Under the pieces are notes generated by a model. The model had not been told where the DNA came from. It saw only the letters and a list, made by a program, of their open reading frames with translations, and ran no database searches. The translations under genes and the position numbers were made by a program. From Candidatus Cloacimonadota bacterium (GTDB lineage Bacteria > Cloacimonadota > Cloacimonadia > JGIOTU-2), in assembly GCA_021158425.1 (NCBI GenBank), contig JAGGUR010000033.1:1-10537 (forward strand): DNA of 10,537 nucleotides, given 5' to 3'. Shown in pieces: positions 991 through 9,883 of this stretch (positions within the stretch are counted from its first letter, which is position 1; each line of letters begins with the position of its first letter).

Positions 991-1052
991 CGGAGTGTGC
1001 TGTTATGCTGAAAGTTCGTCCCGATTAAATCGGGACTCGTTTCAGCACTCCA
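991..1052. repeat. BIME-like element copy 1 (half element, one hairpin)
   Basis: This is the shortest of four related copies. It keeps the outer ends CGGAGTG and GCACTCC and one complete hairpin: GCTGAAA, then GTTC, then the perfect stem GTCCCGAT/ATCGGGAC, then TCG, then TTTCAGC. The first hairpin seen in other copies is deleted, leaving CGGAGTG joined to a linker like TGCTGTTAT. Read on the minus strand, the element contributes the last codons and TGA stop of the acetyltransferase gene and fills almost the whole gap before holB. There is no T-tract after the hairpin, so it does not look like a classical terminator. Confidence 0.88.
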
Positions 1053-1625: not shown

Positions 1626-3437
1626 TTACATACTTTCATCGGAGTGCGAAAACGCGTCACGACAAGTCGGGGCAAACTTTTCGCCTGTGCTGTTCTGCTG
1701 AAAGTTCGTCGCTTCGTTCCTCATTTCAGCACTCCAATCCTTGTTTATTTTTTTTTCTTCTGCCGCCTTCTGAATCTTTGCCCAGGGGTCCCGCAAAGTA
1801 ACTGTCCGATTAAATACAAGCATTTTGTCAGAAGAATCAGGGTCCACACAGAAATAGCCTTTTCTTTCAAACTGGTATCTATTTCCTATACTTGCATTCT
1901 TCAGACTTGGTTCCAATTTACATTCAGTTAAAATTTCCAGTGATTTTGGATTCAGATAATTTTTAAAATCATCTTTTTTAGATAGGGGATTTTCTACTGT
2001 AAAAAGTCTATCATAAAGACGGACTTCGGCATTAACAGAATGAGCGGCAGAAACCCAGTGTAAAGTTGCTTTCACTTTCCGTCCATCAGGCGAATCACCG
2101 CCACGAGTTTTAGGGTCGTATGTGCAATGCAATTCAGTCACCTTACCTGTATTTTTATCCTTAACAACTTTTACGCATTTGATAAAATATGCATATCGTA
2201 GCCTTACTTCCCGTCCAGGAGCCAGACGATAAAACTTTTTTGGAGGTTCTTCGCGGAAATCATCTTGTTCAATATATAACACCCGTGAAAATGGGACCTT
2301 CCGTATTCCCATACTTGGGTCTTCTGGATTGTTCACAGCATCCAATTCTTCAACTCTGTTTTGCGGATAATTATCTATTATAACTTTAAGAGGACGGAGA
2401 ACAGCCATCACTCGTGGAGCTCGTTTATTCAAATCTTCACGAATGCAATACTCAAGTAGAGCCAAATCAACTATACTTTCGCTTTTCGCCACTCCAATGC
2501 GTTCACAAAAATTTCTGATTGATTCAGGTGTATAGCCTCGCCTTCTCAAACCTGATATAGTTGGCATTCGTGGGTCATCCCATCCTTTGACATAACCACC
2601 TTCAACCAATTCCAGAAGTTTTCTCTTACTCATTATAGTATAACGGAGATTAAGGCGAGCGAACTCAATCTGTTGAGGATGATAAACTCGTAATTCATCA
2701 AGAAACCAGTCATATATTTCGCGGTTATTTTCAAATTCCAGAGTACAAAATGAGTGAGTAATTCTTTCTATAGAATCTTCAAGGCAATGAGCAAAATCAT
2801 ACATTGGATAGATACACCATTTATCACCCGTTCTGTGATGATGAGCATGCCGAATACGATAGATAAGAGGGTCTCGCATCTTCATATTTGGTGATGCCAT
2901 ATCAATCTTTGCCCGTAATACATAAGCACCGTCCTCAAACTCGCCTTTACGCATTCTTTCAAACAGGTCCAAATTCTCTTCAATGGAACGATTGCGGTAT
3001 GGACTTTCCTTGCCCGGCTGCTTTACAGTGCCCCGATATTCCCGAATCTCTTGCTCGTTTAGATTGCACACATAAGCTTTGCCTTCTTTAATTAATTGAA
3101 CAGCATATTCATACATTTTATCAAAATAATCAGAAGCATAGTACAATCTATCTCCCCAGTCAAATCCAAGCCAATGAATGTCTTCCTGAATTGCTTTGAT
3201 GTATTCAGGGTTTTCTTTTGTCGGGTTGGTGTCATCAAATCGTAGATTGCAAAGCCCTCCATATTGCTCAGCAATACCGAAATCAATACAGATTGCTTTA
3301 GCATGACCAATATGAAGATAACCGTTTGGTTCTGGCGGAAAACGTGTATGAACTCTGCCATCATATTTATTAGTTTTTAAATCATTTTCAACGATTGTTT
3401 TAAGAAAGTTTGTAGGCGTAGAATCCATGGAGTTCAT
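1626..3437 (-). CDS. glnS: Glutaminyl-tRNA synthetase with repeat-encoded C-terminal tail
   Basis: This class I synthetase attaches glutamine to tRNA-Gln in the cytoplasm. It is 603 residues, against about 554 for the E. coli enzyme. The catalytic Rossmann domain carries [13 protein letters not shown] with HIGH at 42-45, and the second signature MSKRK starts at M269. The anticodon-binding beta-barrel region follows from about 345 to 555 and ends in [15 protein letters not shown], which matches the natural C-terminal end of E. coli GlnRS. After [10 protein letters not shown] the remaining ~36 residues (W568 onward) are translated almost wholly from repeat copy 2, so they are an acquired tail rather than a GlnRS domain. 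The start at 3437 is supported by GGGAG eight bases upstream; M4 is an alternative without its own site. Sampled stretches look richer in G+C than gltX. Bacterial GlnRS is known to be of eukaryotic origin, spread by horizontal transfer. Confidence 0.97.
1640..1736. repeat. BIME-like element copy 2, inside the 3' end of glnS
   Basis: This 97-base copy is bounded by CGGAGTGC and GCACTCC. The first unit is a hairpin with outer stem GCGAAAA/TTTTCGC and an imperfect inner stem around CGACAAGTCG. The linker CTGTGCTGTTCT follows, then the second unit bounded by GCTGAAA and TTTCAGC. In this copy the inner stem of the second unit is decayed (GTCGCTTCGTTCCTC, not self-complementary), suggesting it is older than the copies around the RAYT gene. 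On the minus strand it is read in frame as GlnRS residues 568 to about 600. The other two frames in that direction hit TGA within the first 20 bases. Confidence 0.88.
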
Positions 3438-3485: not shown

Positions 3486-3627
3486 CGGAGTGCTTGCCTT
3501 CGTTCCGATACATCGGGAGCGAAGCAAGGCAAAAACGAGTCCCGACGGGTCGGGAGGAACTTTTCGCTACTGTTACTATGCTGAAAGTTCGTCTCCCGAT
3601 AAATCGGGAGACTCGTTTCAGCACTCC
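3486..3627. repeat. BIME-like element copy 3 (expanded), 3' side of RAYT gene
   Basis: This is the longest copy, bounded by CGGAGTGC and GCACTCC. Its right-hand 73 bases (3555-3627) are identical to 4247-4319 of copy 4, including the linker TACTGTTACTAT and the hairpin with stem TCTCCCGAT/ATCGGGAGA. The left unit has inner stem TCCCGAC/GTCGGGA between CGAG and GGAAC. An additional imperfect hairpin (about 3492-3530: TTGCCTTCG, TTCCGAT, then ATCGGGA, CGAAGCAAGG) has been inserted next to the left end, giving three hairpins instead of two. The element ends 15 bases past the RAYT stop and begins about 48 bases upstream of the glnS start, so it sits in the leader of glnS if the cluster is one transcript. 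Confidence 0.9.
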
Positions 3628-3642
3628 TGCTATTATATTTTA

Positions 3643-4182
3643 CTAAAAATCATCCTCATCTCCTAACTCCAGATTGCGATAATCATATAAGGCAAATTGC
3701 ATTTGAAGTTCTTCTATTCCTTCTTTTTCCAATCTAATGTGGAAACTTGACCATTTATAATTTGAAATCTCTTTAACATACTTATGCTTTACCGGATTAT
3801 ACAAAATGTAGTTTAATCTTCTAAAATAATCTTTTTTGTTCCTCATACAAGTATCCCAATAATTATACCAGAGAGGTTTTACCTTAAATCCATTTATTTG
3901 GTTTATCTCAGTTGCACTTTTACGATGTATCTGTTGAATCAATTTTGGTAAGTCCATTCCCTTGCAACTCTTTGTCATTAAGTGATAATGGTTATCTAAT
4001 ATTACCCAATCTACCAATTTCCAATTTAACTTACCTATCCAATAATTTATCGCATTTAACAGACTTCCTTTTGCCTTATCATTTGCCAGCAGTTTTCTTT
4101 TCTTATAAACTGCACCTGTTATCATATAAAAGGTATCATTTAATAAAAGATGTGCTGGTGTATGTTGATATATTTTTAGCAT
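3643..4182 (-). CDS. REP-associated tyrosine transposase (RAYT, Y1/HUH, IS200-like)
   Basis: This 179-residue protein is a predicted single-stranded DNA nuclease of the Y1 HUH family, expected to cut and join DNA at REP hairpins. The metal-binding HUH motif is H65-Y66-H67 in VDWVILDNHYHLM. The catalytic tyrosine is probably Y125 in NYILYNPVKHKYV, which matches the YI..NPVKHG.V pattern of known RAYTs. The following YKWSSFHIRLEKEG matches the W..SSFH....G C-terminal signature of the RAYT branch, which true IS200 TnpA lacks. All key residues are present, so it looks intact. No Shine-Dalgarno is visible upstream of the ATG at 4182 (the leader is nearly all A/T), suggesting weak translation. Flanking repeats on both sides give strong contextual support. 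It has no tnpB partner. Confidence 0.9.
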   Translation of the reverse strand: MLKIYQHTPAHLLLNDTFYMITGAVYKKRKLLANDKAKGSLLNAINYWIGKLNWKLVDWVILDNHYHLMTKSCKGMDLPKLIQQIHRKSATEINQINGFKVKPLWYNYWDTCMRNKKDYFRRLNYILYNPVKHKYVKEISNYKWSSFHIRLEKEGIEELQMQFALYDYRNLELGDEDDF

Positions 4183-4213
4183 AATATTTTTTTATATAAT
4201 CAAAAAGTTATCT

Positions 4214-4320
4214 CGGAGTGCGAAAACGAGTTGCGATGAAATCGCAAGGAACTTTTCGCTACTGTTACTATGCTGAAAGTTCGTCTCCCGATAAATCGGG
4301 AGACTCGTTTCAGCACTCCG
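4214..4320. repeat. BIME-like element copy 4 (cleanest copy), between gltX and RAYT
   Basis: This 107-base copy is the best reference. Its outer ends CGGAGTGC and GCACTCCG are perfect inverted repeats. Unit A is GCGAAAA, CGAG, the stem TTGCGAT/ATCGCAA with a GAA loop, GGAAC, TTTTCGC. The linker is TACTGTTACTAT. Unit B is GCTGAAA, GTTC, the stem GTCTCCCGAT/ATCGGGAGAC, TCG, TTTCAGC. Units A and B are inverted versions of one another (GTTC on one side and CGAG on the other side of the inner stem), each preceded at its foot by GGAG on its own strand. The element ends three bases before the last base of the gltX stop codon. Confidence 0.92.
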
Positions 4321-5977: not shown

Positions 5978-8900
5978 ATGAAAAAAAAGTATTTACCTCT
6001 ATTTTTACTTCTCTTTATTTTTTCGAGTGTATTTTTGTTCAGCGTAAATAATGCTCATGCAATAGCAATAACATATACAGATAGCTGGGGAAATTCTGGC
6101 TATAATTTAGATAGTGCAAATGAATCTGGCGTTGAAATAACTTTTTCAATCACAGAATTCTTTTTAGAGGACAGAGAAATTAATGGGCAGGTTATGCAAA
6201 CTTTGCATCTTTCAGGAGTTTTTCTTCCCAATGATGCCGGTGCACCCGACCTACCGTGTTCTGGTCGTTATATTGCGATTCCTCAGGGAGCATCAGCCAG
6301 TGTTCAAATCATTGCCTTACGCACGGAGACATTCCAGGATATAGATATGGCACCAGCATATCGTATTCCTCTTGAAACTGAAACCGGGCCACTTGAGTAC
6401 AGTAAAAATTTAGAAATATACTCAAAAGATGCTTTCTATCCTGAAAATCCTGTGATAATTTCTGAGCCTATGCAAATTCGTGGCATTGATGCAGTAATAC
6501 TTGGCATTACACCATTTCAGTATAATCCCATAACAAAAGAATTGGTTGTTTATCGTGATTTGAAAGTTGATATCACCTTTAATGGTGGGAATGGACATTT
6601 TGGGGAAGACAGGCTACGCAGTCGCTGGTGGGATCCAATATTAAATGATGTGTTACTTAACTATGCTTCTCTGCCCAAGATGAATTATAATTATCCCTCA
6701 AAATCTCGTGATGGTTTTGAATATCTTATTATTACACCTGACGACCCAGATTTTATTGCATGGGCAGACTCCATTAAGGTTTTTCGAACCTTACAAGGTA
6801 TTCTTACAGGTGTTGTGACAACCACTGAAGTTGGTGGAAATACAACTACTGCAATTGAAAACTATATCAACAATGCATACAATACTTGGGACCCTGCTCC
6901 TGTTGCAGTTCTTCTGTTAGGTGATTACGGAACAACAGGCAGCACAATCGTCTCACCTATCTGGTATGGGGGATATAGTCCATGTGCTTCTGATAATATC
7001 TATGCTGATATAGATGGCGACGACCTTCCGGAAATAGCTTTTGCTCGTATAACAGCGCAAGATGAGGATGATTTGTCTACAATGATTGGAAAATTTCTGA
7101 ACTATGAACGCACCCCACCAACAAATCCAGATTTTTACAATCATCCTATCGCTGCTGGTGGATGGCAATCAGATCGTTGGTTCATCCTTTGTAGCGATAT
7201 AATATATGGATTTTGGGAAAACGCACTTGACAAAAGCCCAGTCCGTGAATACGCTGGTTATAGCGGAGGAGCCCCTTCTTATTGGTCAACTAACTCTAAT
7301 ACTAGCCTTATTGTAAATTACTTCGGACCAGATGGTCTTGGGTATATTCCGGCGACACCATCTCATCTAACTGACTGGGGCGGAAACGCTTATCGTATAA
7401 ATACTGATATAAATAGCGGTGCTTTTATTATACAGCACAGAGACCATGGTGGTGAAACAGGTTGGGGTGACCCCAGTTATCACAATAGTGACCTTGCTGG
7501 ATTGAACAATAATGATCTTACTTTTGTCTTTTCTGTAAATTGTTTAACAGGTAAGTACAATTGGAGCAGTGAATGTTTTGCAGAAGCATTCCATCGTCAT
7601 GAAAAAGGAGCACTGGGTATTATTGCAGCATCAGAGGTCTCATTCTCTTTTGTGAATGATACTTATGTTTGGGGAATGTATGATAATATGTGGCCTGATT
7701 TTGACCCAGGATATGGAGGAAATGATTTTGATACTAACTTTATTCTTCCGTGTTTTGCTAATGCTTCTGGGAAATATTACCTCCAGGTTTCAAGTTGGCC
7801 AAGTAACCCAGGTTCTAAAAATACTGTTTATCATCTGTTTCATCATCATGGAGATGCATTTACTACTGTGTATTCAGAAATGCCACAGGACTTAACTGTA
7901 ATTCATAACCCTGTTCTATTAAGTGGCGTTGATTTCTTCACTGTAACAGCAAATGAGGATGCCCTTATCTCATTAACTGTAGACGGAGAAATTATTGGTA
8001 CTGGTGAAGGAACCGGAACGCCTATTAATATTACTATTCCACCACAATTACCGGGCAACAATATGATAGTTACTATTACCAAGCAGAATTATTACCGCTA
8101 TTCTGCTTCTGTAGAAATTATTCCACCAAGCGGTCCCTATGTTGTATACGATTCTCATATAATTAATGATATATTAGGCAATAATAACGGCGAATCAGAC
8201 TTCGGTGAAGAGATATTACTGGGTATGACCCTCAAAAATGTTGGCATACAAAATGCATATGATGTGGTTGCAACAATATCAACAGCAGATGATTATATCA
8301 CAATAACTGATAGTACAGAGAATTTTGGCACAATTCTAGCTAGTAGAGCAAAAACACGAATTGATGCATTTGATTTTAATATTGCTGATGACATTCCAGA
8401 CCAACATATAGTTATGTTTGACTTAGAAATAGCAGGAAGTGCAAAAGATACATGGGAAGCTTCATTTGCCATTGTAATTAACGCCCCTTATCTGACTATC
8501 GGCGACCTAATAATTGATGATTCTGGTGGCAATAATAATGGACGCTTGGATCCTGGAGAAACTGTTCATTTAATAATCCCTACAACTAATGATGGTCATT
8601 CGGACTCTCCAAATGCCACTGGAAACTTATCCTGTAGTAATGAGTATATTACTATTAACACAGGAACATCCGATTTGGGTGTTATTCCTGTAGATTCTAC
8701 TGAAAGTGCTATGTTTAATATAACAGTAGCTTCCGACACGCCAATCGGTATTACAATACCTCTTGATTATAATGTTATTGCAGGAAGTTATTCCGCGTCA
8801 GAATCCTTTTATGAACCTGTAGGCTTATCTATTGAAGATTTTGAAACAGGAGATTTCTCAAGTTATGATTGGGTGCAAGGCGGAAATGCAAATTGGACAG

Positions 8901-9883
8901 TAGTTACAGAAGACCCTTATGAAGGCACTTATTGTGCAAAGTCAGGAACAATTTCTCACAATCAGACTACAGAATTATCAATTAATGTGGATGTTTTTTC
9001 TGGAACTATTTCTTTTTACCGCAAAGTATCATCAGAAGCAGGTTATGATTATCTAAGATTTTACATAGATGGTGCTCAACAAGGACAATGGGCTGGCAAT
9101 GTTTCCTGGGGTGAAGAATCATATACAGTAACATCCGGTAATCATACCTTTAAATGGTCTTATGAAAAGGATGTTGGTGTTAGTAGTGGTAGTGATTGTG
9201 CCTGGATAGATTTTATAACTTTTCCACCAATATTGCCACCCGAGCCAGTGTTTTATTTAAATCCTACATCTATTGATTTTGGTGAGGTAACTGTCGGTGA
9301 TTCTTCTACTGCACAGTTTACAATACATAATTTAGGTGGCGATACATTAAGCGGCACCATTAGAACTCCAAACGGTTACACGGTTGCTGAAGCTGGAACT
9401 CAGTCTGGTGCCAAGAATCAAATGCCTTATAGCATACCTTTAGGTCAAAGTCAAACCTATGATTTGACTTTTAAGCCAACTGCATCTCAATCTTACAACG
9501 GTTCTGTTTTAATTATTGTATATCCTAATCAACGAGAGTTTCTTACATTAACAGGGACAGGTGTTCAGGTAAGTATTACTGAGTTAGATGTATTTGAAAA
9601 TACAGAATTATTAGGCAGTTATCCAAATCCTGCTATTAATTCTACAATCATAAAATATCAACTCAAAGGAAGTTCTAAATCTCAGGATGCAACTATTAAG
9701 GTTTATAATGTTCAGGGAGAATTAGTTAAAATAATCCAGGGCAAGAACGGTAAAGCTATATTAGATGTATCAGACATTGCAACGGGAATCTATTTCTACC
9801 AACTCTCCGCCAAAGGTGGATCCTCCTCTGGAGGAAAGACAGAGAACTACAATAAAATCAAAAAGATGATTGTGATTAGATAA
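5978..9883 (+). CDS. Secreted gingipain-like cysteine protease (peptidase C25) with type IX secretion sorting domain
   Basis: This 1301-residue protein is predicted to be exported and then displayed or released at the cell surface to degrade protein. The signal peptide has a KKK start and long hydrophobic core, with likely cleavage after AHA (residue 28). A C25 propeptide-like domain follows (about 35-235; GAPDLPCSGRYIAIP). The protease domain (about 245-590) carries the probable catalytic pair H490 in HRDHGGETGWGDP and C522 in SVNCLTGKYNW, 32 residues apart as in gingipain R. After it come an Ig-like domain (to about 715), two modules with calcium-loop-like motifs (NNNGESDFGEE near 734, GGNNNGRLDPGE near 850), a beta-sandwich module starting EDFETGDF near 953, an ASH-like Ig domain (SIDFGEVTVGDS near 1096), and the sorting domain from about 1205 (SYPNPAINSTI, GIYFYQL, KKMIVIR). 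Start: AAAGGCGG lies six bases before the ATG. It appears monocistronic, with its own terminator. Confidence 0.92.
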   Translation: MKKKYLPLFLLLFIFSSVFLFSVNNAHAIAITYTDSWGNSGYNLDSANESGVEITFSITEFFLEDREINGQVMQTLHLSGVFLPNDAGAPDLPCSGRYIAIPQGASASVQIIALRTETFQDIDMAPAYRIPLETETGPLEYSKNLEIYSKDAFYPENPVIISEPMQIRGIDAVILGITPFQYNPITKELVVYRDLKVDITFNGGNGHFGEDRLRSRWWDPILNDVLLNYASLPKMNYNYPSKSRDGFEYLIITPDDPDFIAWADSIKVFRTLQGILTGVVTTTEVGGNTTTAIENYINNAYNTWDPAPVAVLLLGDYGTTGSTIVSPIWYGGYSPCASDNIYADIDGDDLPEIAFARITAQDEDDLSTMIGKFLNYERTPPTNPDFYNHPIAAGGWQSDRWFILCSDIIYGFWENALDKSPVREYAGYSGGAPSYWSTNSNTSLIVNYFGPDGLGYIPATPSHLTDWGGNAYRINTDINSGAFIIQHRDHGGETGWGDPSYHNSDLAGLNNNDLTFVFSVNCLTGKYNWSSECFAEAFHRHEKGALGIIAASEVSFSFVNDTYVWGMYDNMWPDFDPGYGGNDFDTNFILPCFANASGKYYLQVSSWPSNPGSKNTVYHLFHHHGDAFTTVYSEMPQDLTVIHNPVLLSGVDFFTVTANEDALISLTVDGEIIGTGEGTGTPINITIPPQLPGNNMIVTITKQNYYRYSASVEIIPPSGPYVVYDSHIINDILGNNNGESDFGEEILLGMTLKNVGIQNAYDVVATISTADDYITITDSTENFGTILASRAKTRIDAFDFNIADDIPDQHIVMFDLEIAGSAKDTWEASFAIVINAPYLTIGDLIIDDSGGNNNGRLDPGETVHLIIPTTNDGHSDSPNATGNLSCSNEYITINTGTSDLGVIPVDSTESAMFNITVASDTPIGITIPLDYNVIAGSYSASESFYEPVGLSIEDFETGDFSSYDWVQGGNANWTVVTEDPYEGTYCAKSGTISHNQTTELSINVDVFSGTISFYRKVSSEAGYDYLRFYIDGAQQGQWAGNVSWGEESYTVTSGNHTFKWSYEKDVGVSSGSDCAWIDFITFPPILPPEPVFYLNPTSIDFGEVTVGDSSTAQFTIHNLGGDTLSGTIRTPNGYTVAEAGTQSGAKNQMPYSIPLGQSQTYDLTFKPTASQSYNGSVLIIVYPNQREFLTLTGTGVQVSITELDVFENTELLGSYPNPAINSTIIKYQLKGSSKSQDATIKVYNVQGELVKIIQGKNGKAILDVSDIATGIYFYQLSAKGGSSSGGKTENYNKIKKMIVIR

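Follow-up and report, generated by a model that had tools for sequence, protein, structure and literature searches.

A RAYT gene between GGAG-footed REPINs in a Candidatus Cloacimonadota genome, and a related group of RAYTs in other phyla

The window, by which we mean the whole 10,537-nucleotide stretch of DNA that was analysed, is contig C49 of a fragmented Candidatus Cloacimonadota genome (G000; 953,954 bases in 173 contigs, 61.59% complete). It holds a RAYT gene and four REPINs, inverted pairs of REP units of which the pair acts as the mobile unit, and the RAYT lies between the last two (Table 1). As read from the DNA, all four REPINs are bounded by GGAG and CTCC, one at each end. Farther along (5978-9883) the window encodes a peptidase C25 protein of 1301 aa with a type IX secretion sorting tail.

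Table 1. RAYT gene, leader and REPINs of the window, with the basis of each assignment
Feature	Position	Strand	Basis
REPIN 1, lone, unit B mostly deleted, between GNAT and holB	992..1051	.	folding, unit matches
REPIN 2, 3' end of glnS, inside last ~39 codons; units 1696-1735(-), 1641-1685(+)	1641..1735	.	unit matches
REPIN 3, between RAYT end and glnS; units 3579-3627(-), 3524-3568(+)	3487..3627	.	folding, unit matches
RAYT / TnpAREP-like HUH-Y1 gene, 179 aa	3643..4182	-	profiles, motifs (HYH 65-67, W105, catalytic Y125)
Short leader, REPIN 4 to RAYT start codon	4183..4214	.	similar-length leader in G116
REPIN 4, between gltX end and RAYT start; unit A 4271-4319(-), unit B 4215-4260(+)	4215..4319	.	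folding, unit matches

In profile searches the window RAYT scored 95.1 bits against NF047646 (REP_Tyr_transpos; cut-off 80), of which it is the only match in G000, and 33.3 bits against Pfam Y1_Tnp (cut-off 23). Its motifs are intact, with H65-Y66-H67 (NHYH) as the HUH motif and Y125-ILYNP, of type Y---NP, as the tyrosine motif. The best PDB match is E. coli TnpAREP (4er8, E 6.9e-17), followed by the ISHp608 transposase (E 0.0017). A profile score above the curated cut-off, an HUH motif with a single tyrosine in Y---NP, and flanking inverted multicopy REPs together place the ORF among the RAYTs. The gene looks to be under purifying selection (dN/dS 0.061 against G116, with dS at 1.58 near saturation; GNAT 0.092, holB 0.099). 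A search against plasmids gave only four weak matches, each below 33% identity. The original prediction, made from the sequence, had described a Y1/HUH gene with intact signatures between two repeats, the repeats as inverted hairpin units with GGAG at the foot in a REP/BIME architecture, and the host as a probable Cloacimonadota-type genome. These descriptions held: the motifs and the NF047646 score confirm the gene, the GGAG/CTCC ends at 3487-3627 and 4215-4319 confirm the hairpin units, the architecture is that of inverted hairpin pairs flanking the RAYT (with two further REPINs in the window), and the nearest RAYT locus, 83% identical, belongs to a record titled "Candidatus Cloacimonadota bacterium isolate NIOZ-UU1".

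In DNA folding of the plus strand, each REPIN being extended by one or a few bases at its ends, REPINs 4, 3 and 1 gave z scores of -8.2, -6.2 and -4.9, and for each of them none of 200 dinucleotide shuffles folded as well; REPIN 2 folded no better than chance (z -0.4, 69 of 200 shuffles as good). An extra inner hairpin lies inside REPIN 3 at about 3494-3531. The window glnS extends by some 39 codons beyond the usual end of its relatives' matches (residues 560-574), largely by reading through REPIN 2 (window 1626-1745), and small matches to this tail elsewhere coincide with matches to the unit model.

The original prediction had proposed a genome-wide search with a covariance model; one built from five window units found the repeat to be multicopy, with 26 units in G000 (61.6% complete), 7 in the window and 19 outside. 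The sequence GGAGTGCTGAAA occurs exactly 12 times in G000 (its reversed control 0 times, even with one mismatch), and by reading 11 of these occurrences are REP units, the copy on C142 being the exception. Units were also sampled from the window, the loci and fetched stretches of six genomes (20 stretches each from G116 and G120, plus G116:C347 whole); of 153 matches in that sample the best 150 (126 distinct) were aligned. The stem of the unit is supported by compensatory changes: in this alignment, which was fitted to the model and favours pairing, 88.6% of pair cells were paired versus 73.5% after shuffling and 30-58% in slid controls, and 13 of 15 stem pairs had changed on both sides versus a shuffled mean of 9.4. 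The foot is exactly GGAG in 123 of 147 non-redundant units and GTAG in 2 of 147, so that the family has neither the canonical GT[AG]G foot of REPs nor CGTC, which is absent among its 12 commonest feet. Among the 105 units parsed by a strict pattern (42 other units left out), the internal loop has GAAC in 99 and, opposite to it, CGA in 85. A conserved interior loop had been predicted and is present, but as CGA opposite GAAC and not as GTTC opposite CGAG; the fourth base of "CGAG" belongs to the upper stem because it covaries with its partner. Units longer than 35 bases vary in their inner part, of which 98 forms were counted.

Two types of unit can be told apart, A (TGCTGAAA..TTTCAGCA) and B (TGCGAAAA..TTTTCGC); 48 of the 57 REPINs are A/B heterodimers, and 42 of the 57 end in exactly GGAG and CTCC. 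The bases next to the feet of the family units revealed no clear cleavage signature, CT or other. A3 and G4 of the guide are identical in GTAG and GGAG, and therefore cutting at CT is the simplest prediction. An Rfam search of the window and five loci gave nothing above the gathering scores.

A protein search gave 12 relatives of the window RAYT. Starting from an alignment of 10 of them with it, we reached 175 related loci in named genomes and retained the best 80. According to their record titles, these 80 include Methylococcaceae, Beggiatoa-like bacteria, Desulfonema, Chloroflexi, Calditrichaceae, Kapaibacterium, KSB1, Scalindua, WOR-3 and Ignavibacteria. Of these best 80 of 175 loci, 72 have two or more GGAG-footed hairpins within 500 bp of the RAYT, five have one and three have none; GGAG ranks top among 256 tetramers. 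The corresponding scores over the same 80 loci were 5 for GTAG, 5 for GTGG and 9 for CGTC, and for tetramers of the same composition 9 (GAGG), 8 (AGGG) and 8 (GGGA); next in rank came GAGT (70), TGGA (49), AAAA (40) and CGGA (40), of which GAGT, TGGA and CGGA overlap GGAG and AAAA is plain. Under the stricter condition that hairpin stems be perfect and of length 7 or more, two or more GGAG feet were found at 46 of the 80 loci and two or more GTAG feet at none. Where the locus was long enough for distant windows, 52 of 59 were GGAG-positive near the gene versus 8 of 59 far from it. Stem sequences vary widely between loci of different phyla and GGAG stays constant. The hairpin that adjoins the L074 RAYT of Methylobacter tundripaludum SV96 occurs 37 times in that genome with at most two mismatches (26 exact; reversed control 0), two copies being at that RAYT and the rest dispersed.

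The RAYT tree comprised 96 rows: the window, 41 of the 80 loci, 53 Cloacimonadota loci and E. coli rayT. The other 39 of the 80 loci were left out by hand choice for variety, L151, L178, L179 and L180 as the same genes as kept rows, L177 as identical with the window, and L194 and L198 for broken frames. A row was labelled GGAG-positive if at least two GGAG hairpins with stems of at least 7 lay within 600 bp. In this quick maximum-likelihood tree (SH-aLRT support without bootstrap, and with a long-branch warning), one clade of 57 rows (SH-aLRT 96) contains 45 GGAG-positive rows, versus 2 of 39 outside it (L195 and L123, the flanks of L195 being by eye unlike GGAG REPs). The label changes 13 times on the tree versus a shuffled mean of 32.1, and none of 500 shuffles was as low; well-supported branches alone force 9 changes because GGAG-negatives are scattered within the clade. 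Of seven loci with poor counts whose printed flanks were read by eye, L087, L090, L105, L114 and L118 show GGAG hairpins, L116 is doubtful and L067 has none; several clade rows labelled negative are thus GGAG-flanked by eye.

The spacing from the conserved W to the catalytic tyrosine is 20 in all 51 assessable clade members (L115, L117 and L189-L192 being unassessable) and 21 in all 39 other rows; 41 loci had been fetched by two motifs, one of them at the W-Tyr site, and the spacing is thus partly fixed. Among the 16 clade rows fetched without those motifs, the 12 that are assessable all have spacing 20. Aligned to 4er8, the missing residue falls between W94 and E100 of E. coli TnpAREP, a stretch linked to GTAG recognition (PMC6006769, in part). 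At the level of sequence, then, a RAYT clade across many phyla has GGAG hairpins in place of GT[AG]G and a putative guide-recognition loop that is one residue shorter, and we infer a tie between the two. The flanks of two other RAYTs of the phylum, of the WxxRFDD type (L126, L127), hold palindromes such as CGTCAGGGA..TCCCTGACG.

A GTAG or GGAG foot had been taken as known in the original prediction; for GGAG no source was found, and the parts of the literature available give GT[AG]G or CGTC, plus some atypical feet. The word GGAG is absent from the main text of the REP/RAYT literature examined. Our search for a GGAG RAYT clade found no paper among the matches listed, which cover the relevant literature incompletely, and likewise no paper on REP-associated tyrosine transposases in Cloacimonadota and no REP paper on Methylobacter.

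Searches of 124 genomes of the phylum found NF047646 matches in 94 (above cut-off in 64) and, under the stricter filtering of large searches, which loses some weak matches, matches to the unit model in 7, all in the window's family: G000 (26), G116 (49), G120 (34), G118 (12), G117 (12), G119 (5) and G114 (2). NF047646 matches are numerous in some genomes (23 in G076, 19 in G095, 18 each in G066 and G114). Besides G000, the only family genome with a close orthologue of the window RAYT is G116 (83%); the best match is 41% identical in G120 and 34% in G118, and G117 has none. Units thus occur in both of the family genomes with the close orthologue (26 and 49) and in 5 of the 15 without it (2, 5, 12, 12 and 34). 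Copy number had been expected to track the presence of this RAYT, and a close tracking fails on those five genomes; REP number follows the cognate RAYT loosely. The case named in advance as contrary, that of units in relatives without any RAYT, did not arise: all five carriers lack the close orthologue but have other RAYT matches (1 to 18 each). The absences may also be assembly gaps, because repeat-flanked genes break assemblies. In G120 the 41% relative (L185) is accompanied by a separate GGAG family that differs in its stem, and the window-type units there look like orphans. Within the fetched stretches, the median nearest-neighbour identity of REPINs was 0.74 in G000 (n=11), 0.83 in G116 (n=22), 0.79 in G120 (n=17) and 0.83 in G118 (n=4), i.e., copies were not clearly more alike in the genomes with the close orthologue (G000, G116) than in G120 and G118. 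More than 100 REP copies per genome are usual (PMC2817692, in part), and the 26 units of the incomplete G000 fall below this.

gltX lies beside glnS in all 13 relatives with fetched stretches (out of 16 with a match to glnS; the contig of G113 ends within gltX), and a window-like RAYT is present in the stretches of one of the 13, G116. The window RAYT sits between gltX and glnS; G118 shares the outer flanks of this site and carries a single REPIN there without a RAYT, and in G120, G119, G117 and G116 no REPIN was seen there by reading. In G116 GNAT and holB flank the arrangement REPIN-RAYT-REPIN; the corresponding site of the window contains the shortened REPIN 1 on its own. The module occupies different sites in the window and in a relative, and for both sites there is a genome that has a lone REPIN instead. 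In G117 (L230) GNAT is absent and the glnS and holB sides are joined by one REPIN; between glnS and holB, G118 and G120 have neither GNAT nor a REPIN, so that loss of GNAT need not involve REPINs. The half of REPIN 3 away from glnS is 97% identical to REPIN 4 over 78 bases and its glnS-side half resembles the REPIN of G118; REPIN 3 looks like a hybrid of a resident, G118-like REPIN and a RAYT-borne one. Recombination between REPINs would be the simplest cause of the two-site occupancy, which is compatible with gain or loss and with RAYT or RecA alike, and a lone REPIN may be either a docking site or a scar. The system had been predicted to be working or recently working, and the reciprocal occupancy of two sites supports past mobility.

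Taken together, we consider it very probable that the window holds a REPtron, in which a RAYT of the GGAG clade lies between two REPINs, REPINs of the same family are dispersed, and recombination between REPINs is the simplest source of the module's two sites. That the RAYT is a bystander for copy number, the REPINs having spread inside larger repeats, mainly an element with TTAYTACTGGGGGCATAA-like inverted ends, and through homologous recombination, seems unlikely to us. Such a larger repeat, with inverted ends near TTAYTACTGGGGGCATAA, does exist: 21 arm copies (L299-L319) were found in 4 of the 12 genomes searched (13 in G116, 5 in G120, 2 in G000, 1 in G114), and in 20 of these a REPIN foot sits at one shared internal position. 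Both ends were found for 9 of the 21, spanning 215-307 bp in the eight with a REPIN foot and 187 bp in the one without. The two unit matches of G114 adjoin an arm of this element, and G117 holds 12 units with no match to the window RAYT, which also speaks for a bystander. Against it, by their flanks only 13 of the 57 REPINs (14 with L258) and 1 of 11 in G000 lie in the element, and in other phyla GGAG hairpins are concentrated around the RAYT, with the dispersed copies of M. tundripaludum SV96 in addition. Part of the REPIN spread may nevertheless be due to the larger element. No obvious target duplication was seen for this element, some copies have a second hairpin, and REP units occur in two further shared contexts (L001, L006, L239; L250, L272), perhaps larger repeats or conserved regions.

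The finding of a RAYT between hairpins at two sites, with a lone REPIN at the same sites elsewhere, could also be expected if REPIN-RAYT-REPIN were an insertion sequence of the IS200/IS605 type with subterminal hairpins and the lone REPINs its scars. We hold this to be highly improbable, because the window has YILYNP, i.e., the Y---NP motif of class 2 and not the Y---Q of class 1 (PMC6006769, in part), G000 has one NF047646 match versus 26 units, and the flanking elements are complete two-hairpin REPINs. The GGAG feet, for their part, might reflect nothing but shared descent of the repeats, with the reading by the enzyme unchanged and the foot incidental. Reading of the tetranucleotide foot by RAYTs has been studied in few proteins, and two of three RAYTs tolerate foot mutations for binding or cleavage (both PMC8266576, in part); the reading of GGAG is here deduced from sequence. 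An incidental foot is nonetheless decidedly unlikely in our view, since stems diverge widely across phyla and GGAG stays, and 123 of the 147 units of the window family keep it exactly.

By analogy with E. coli TnpAREP, the enzyme of this putative REPtron would use the GGAG foot and the CGA/GAAC internal loop to bind the hairpin in single-stranded form. Tyr125 would cut nearby and the ends would be rejoined, as in E. coli TnpAREP and the IS608-type guide model (PMC8266576, in part), and REPINs would be copied or exchanged as a result. The GGAG branch of enzymes may read a different address label than GTAG. More tentatively, and with slightly less than even confidence, we suggest that an undescribed RAYT clade of many phyla reads GGAG via its one-residue-shorter loop and that the gene travels by enzyme-driven exchange of REPINs, which would serve as its docking sites; homologous recombination could be the agent of this exchange instead. 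With its different foot and its diagnostic deletion of one residue, this large natural clade provides a clean counterpart for tests of the guide code, and the two-site presence/absence pattern makes it directly testable whether and how RAYT genes move.

Among known systems, the window RAYT resembles E. coli TnpAREP (rayT b0228; PDB 4er8) as an HUH-Y1 class 2 enzyme with inverted REP pairs. It differs in the foot (GTAG in E. coli, GGAG in the window family) and in the loop, which reads W-QPRFW-EH in E. coli and W-YNYW-DT, one residue shorter, in the window. An irregularity is conserved in the E. coli REP stem (PMC8266576, in part) and is common to the window family, where, unlike in E. coli, it takes the form of an asymmetric CGA/GAAC loop. 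With TnpAY1 subclass 2.8, compared here by description only (PMC6006769, in part), the window RAYT shares NHYH with its HYH, W[YH] (WY in the window) and Y---NP, but the subclass has GT[AG]G REPs and YIHYNP versus GGAG and YILYNP; the subclass is cyanobacterial in the sample of that study, which mentions relatives elsewhere. Like the GTAG and CGTC palindromic repeat superfamilies, the family consists of small dispersed palindromes with a tetranucleotide tag, but the tag is GGAG, for which no superfamily is named in the available part of PMC3733652; CGTC repeats are described there as not associated with transposase genes. Finally, its elements are inverted REP pairs like the REPINs of PMC3116915 (in part), a possible difference being that the two units of a pair are unlike, one A and one B, in 48 of 57.
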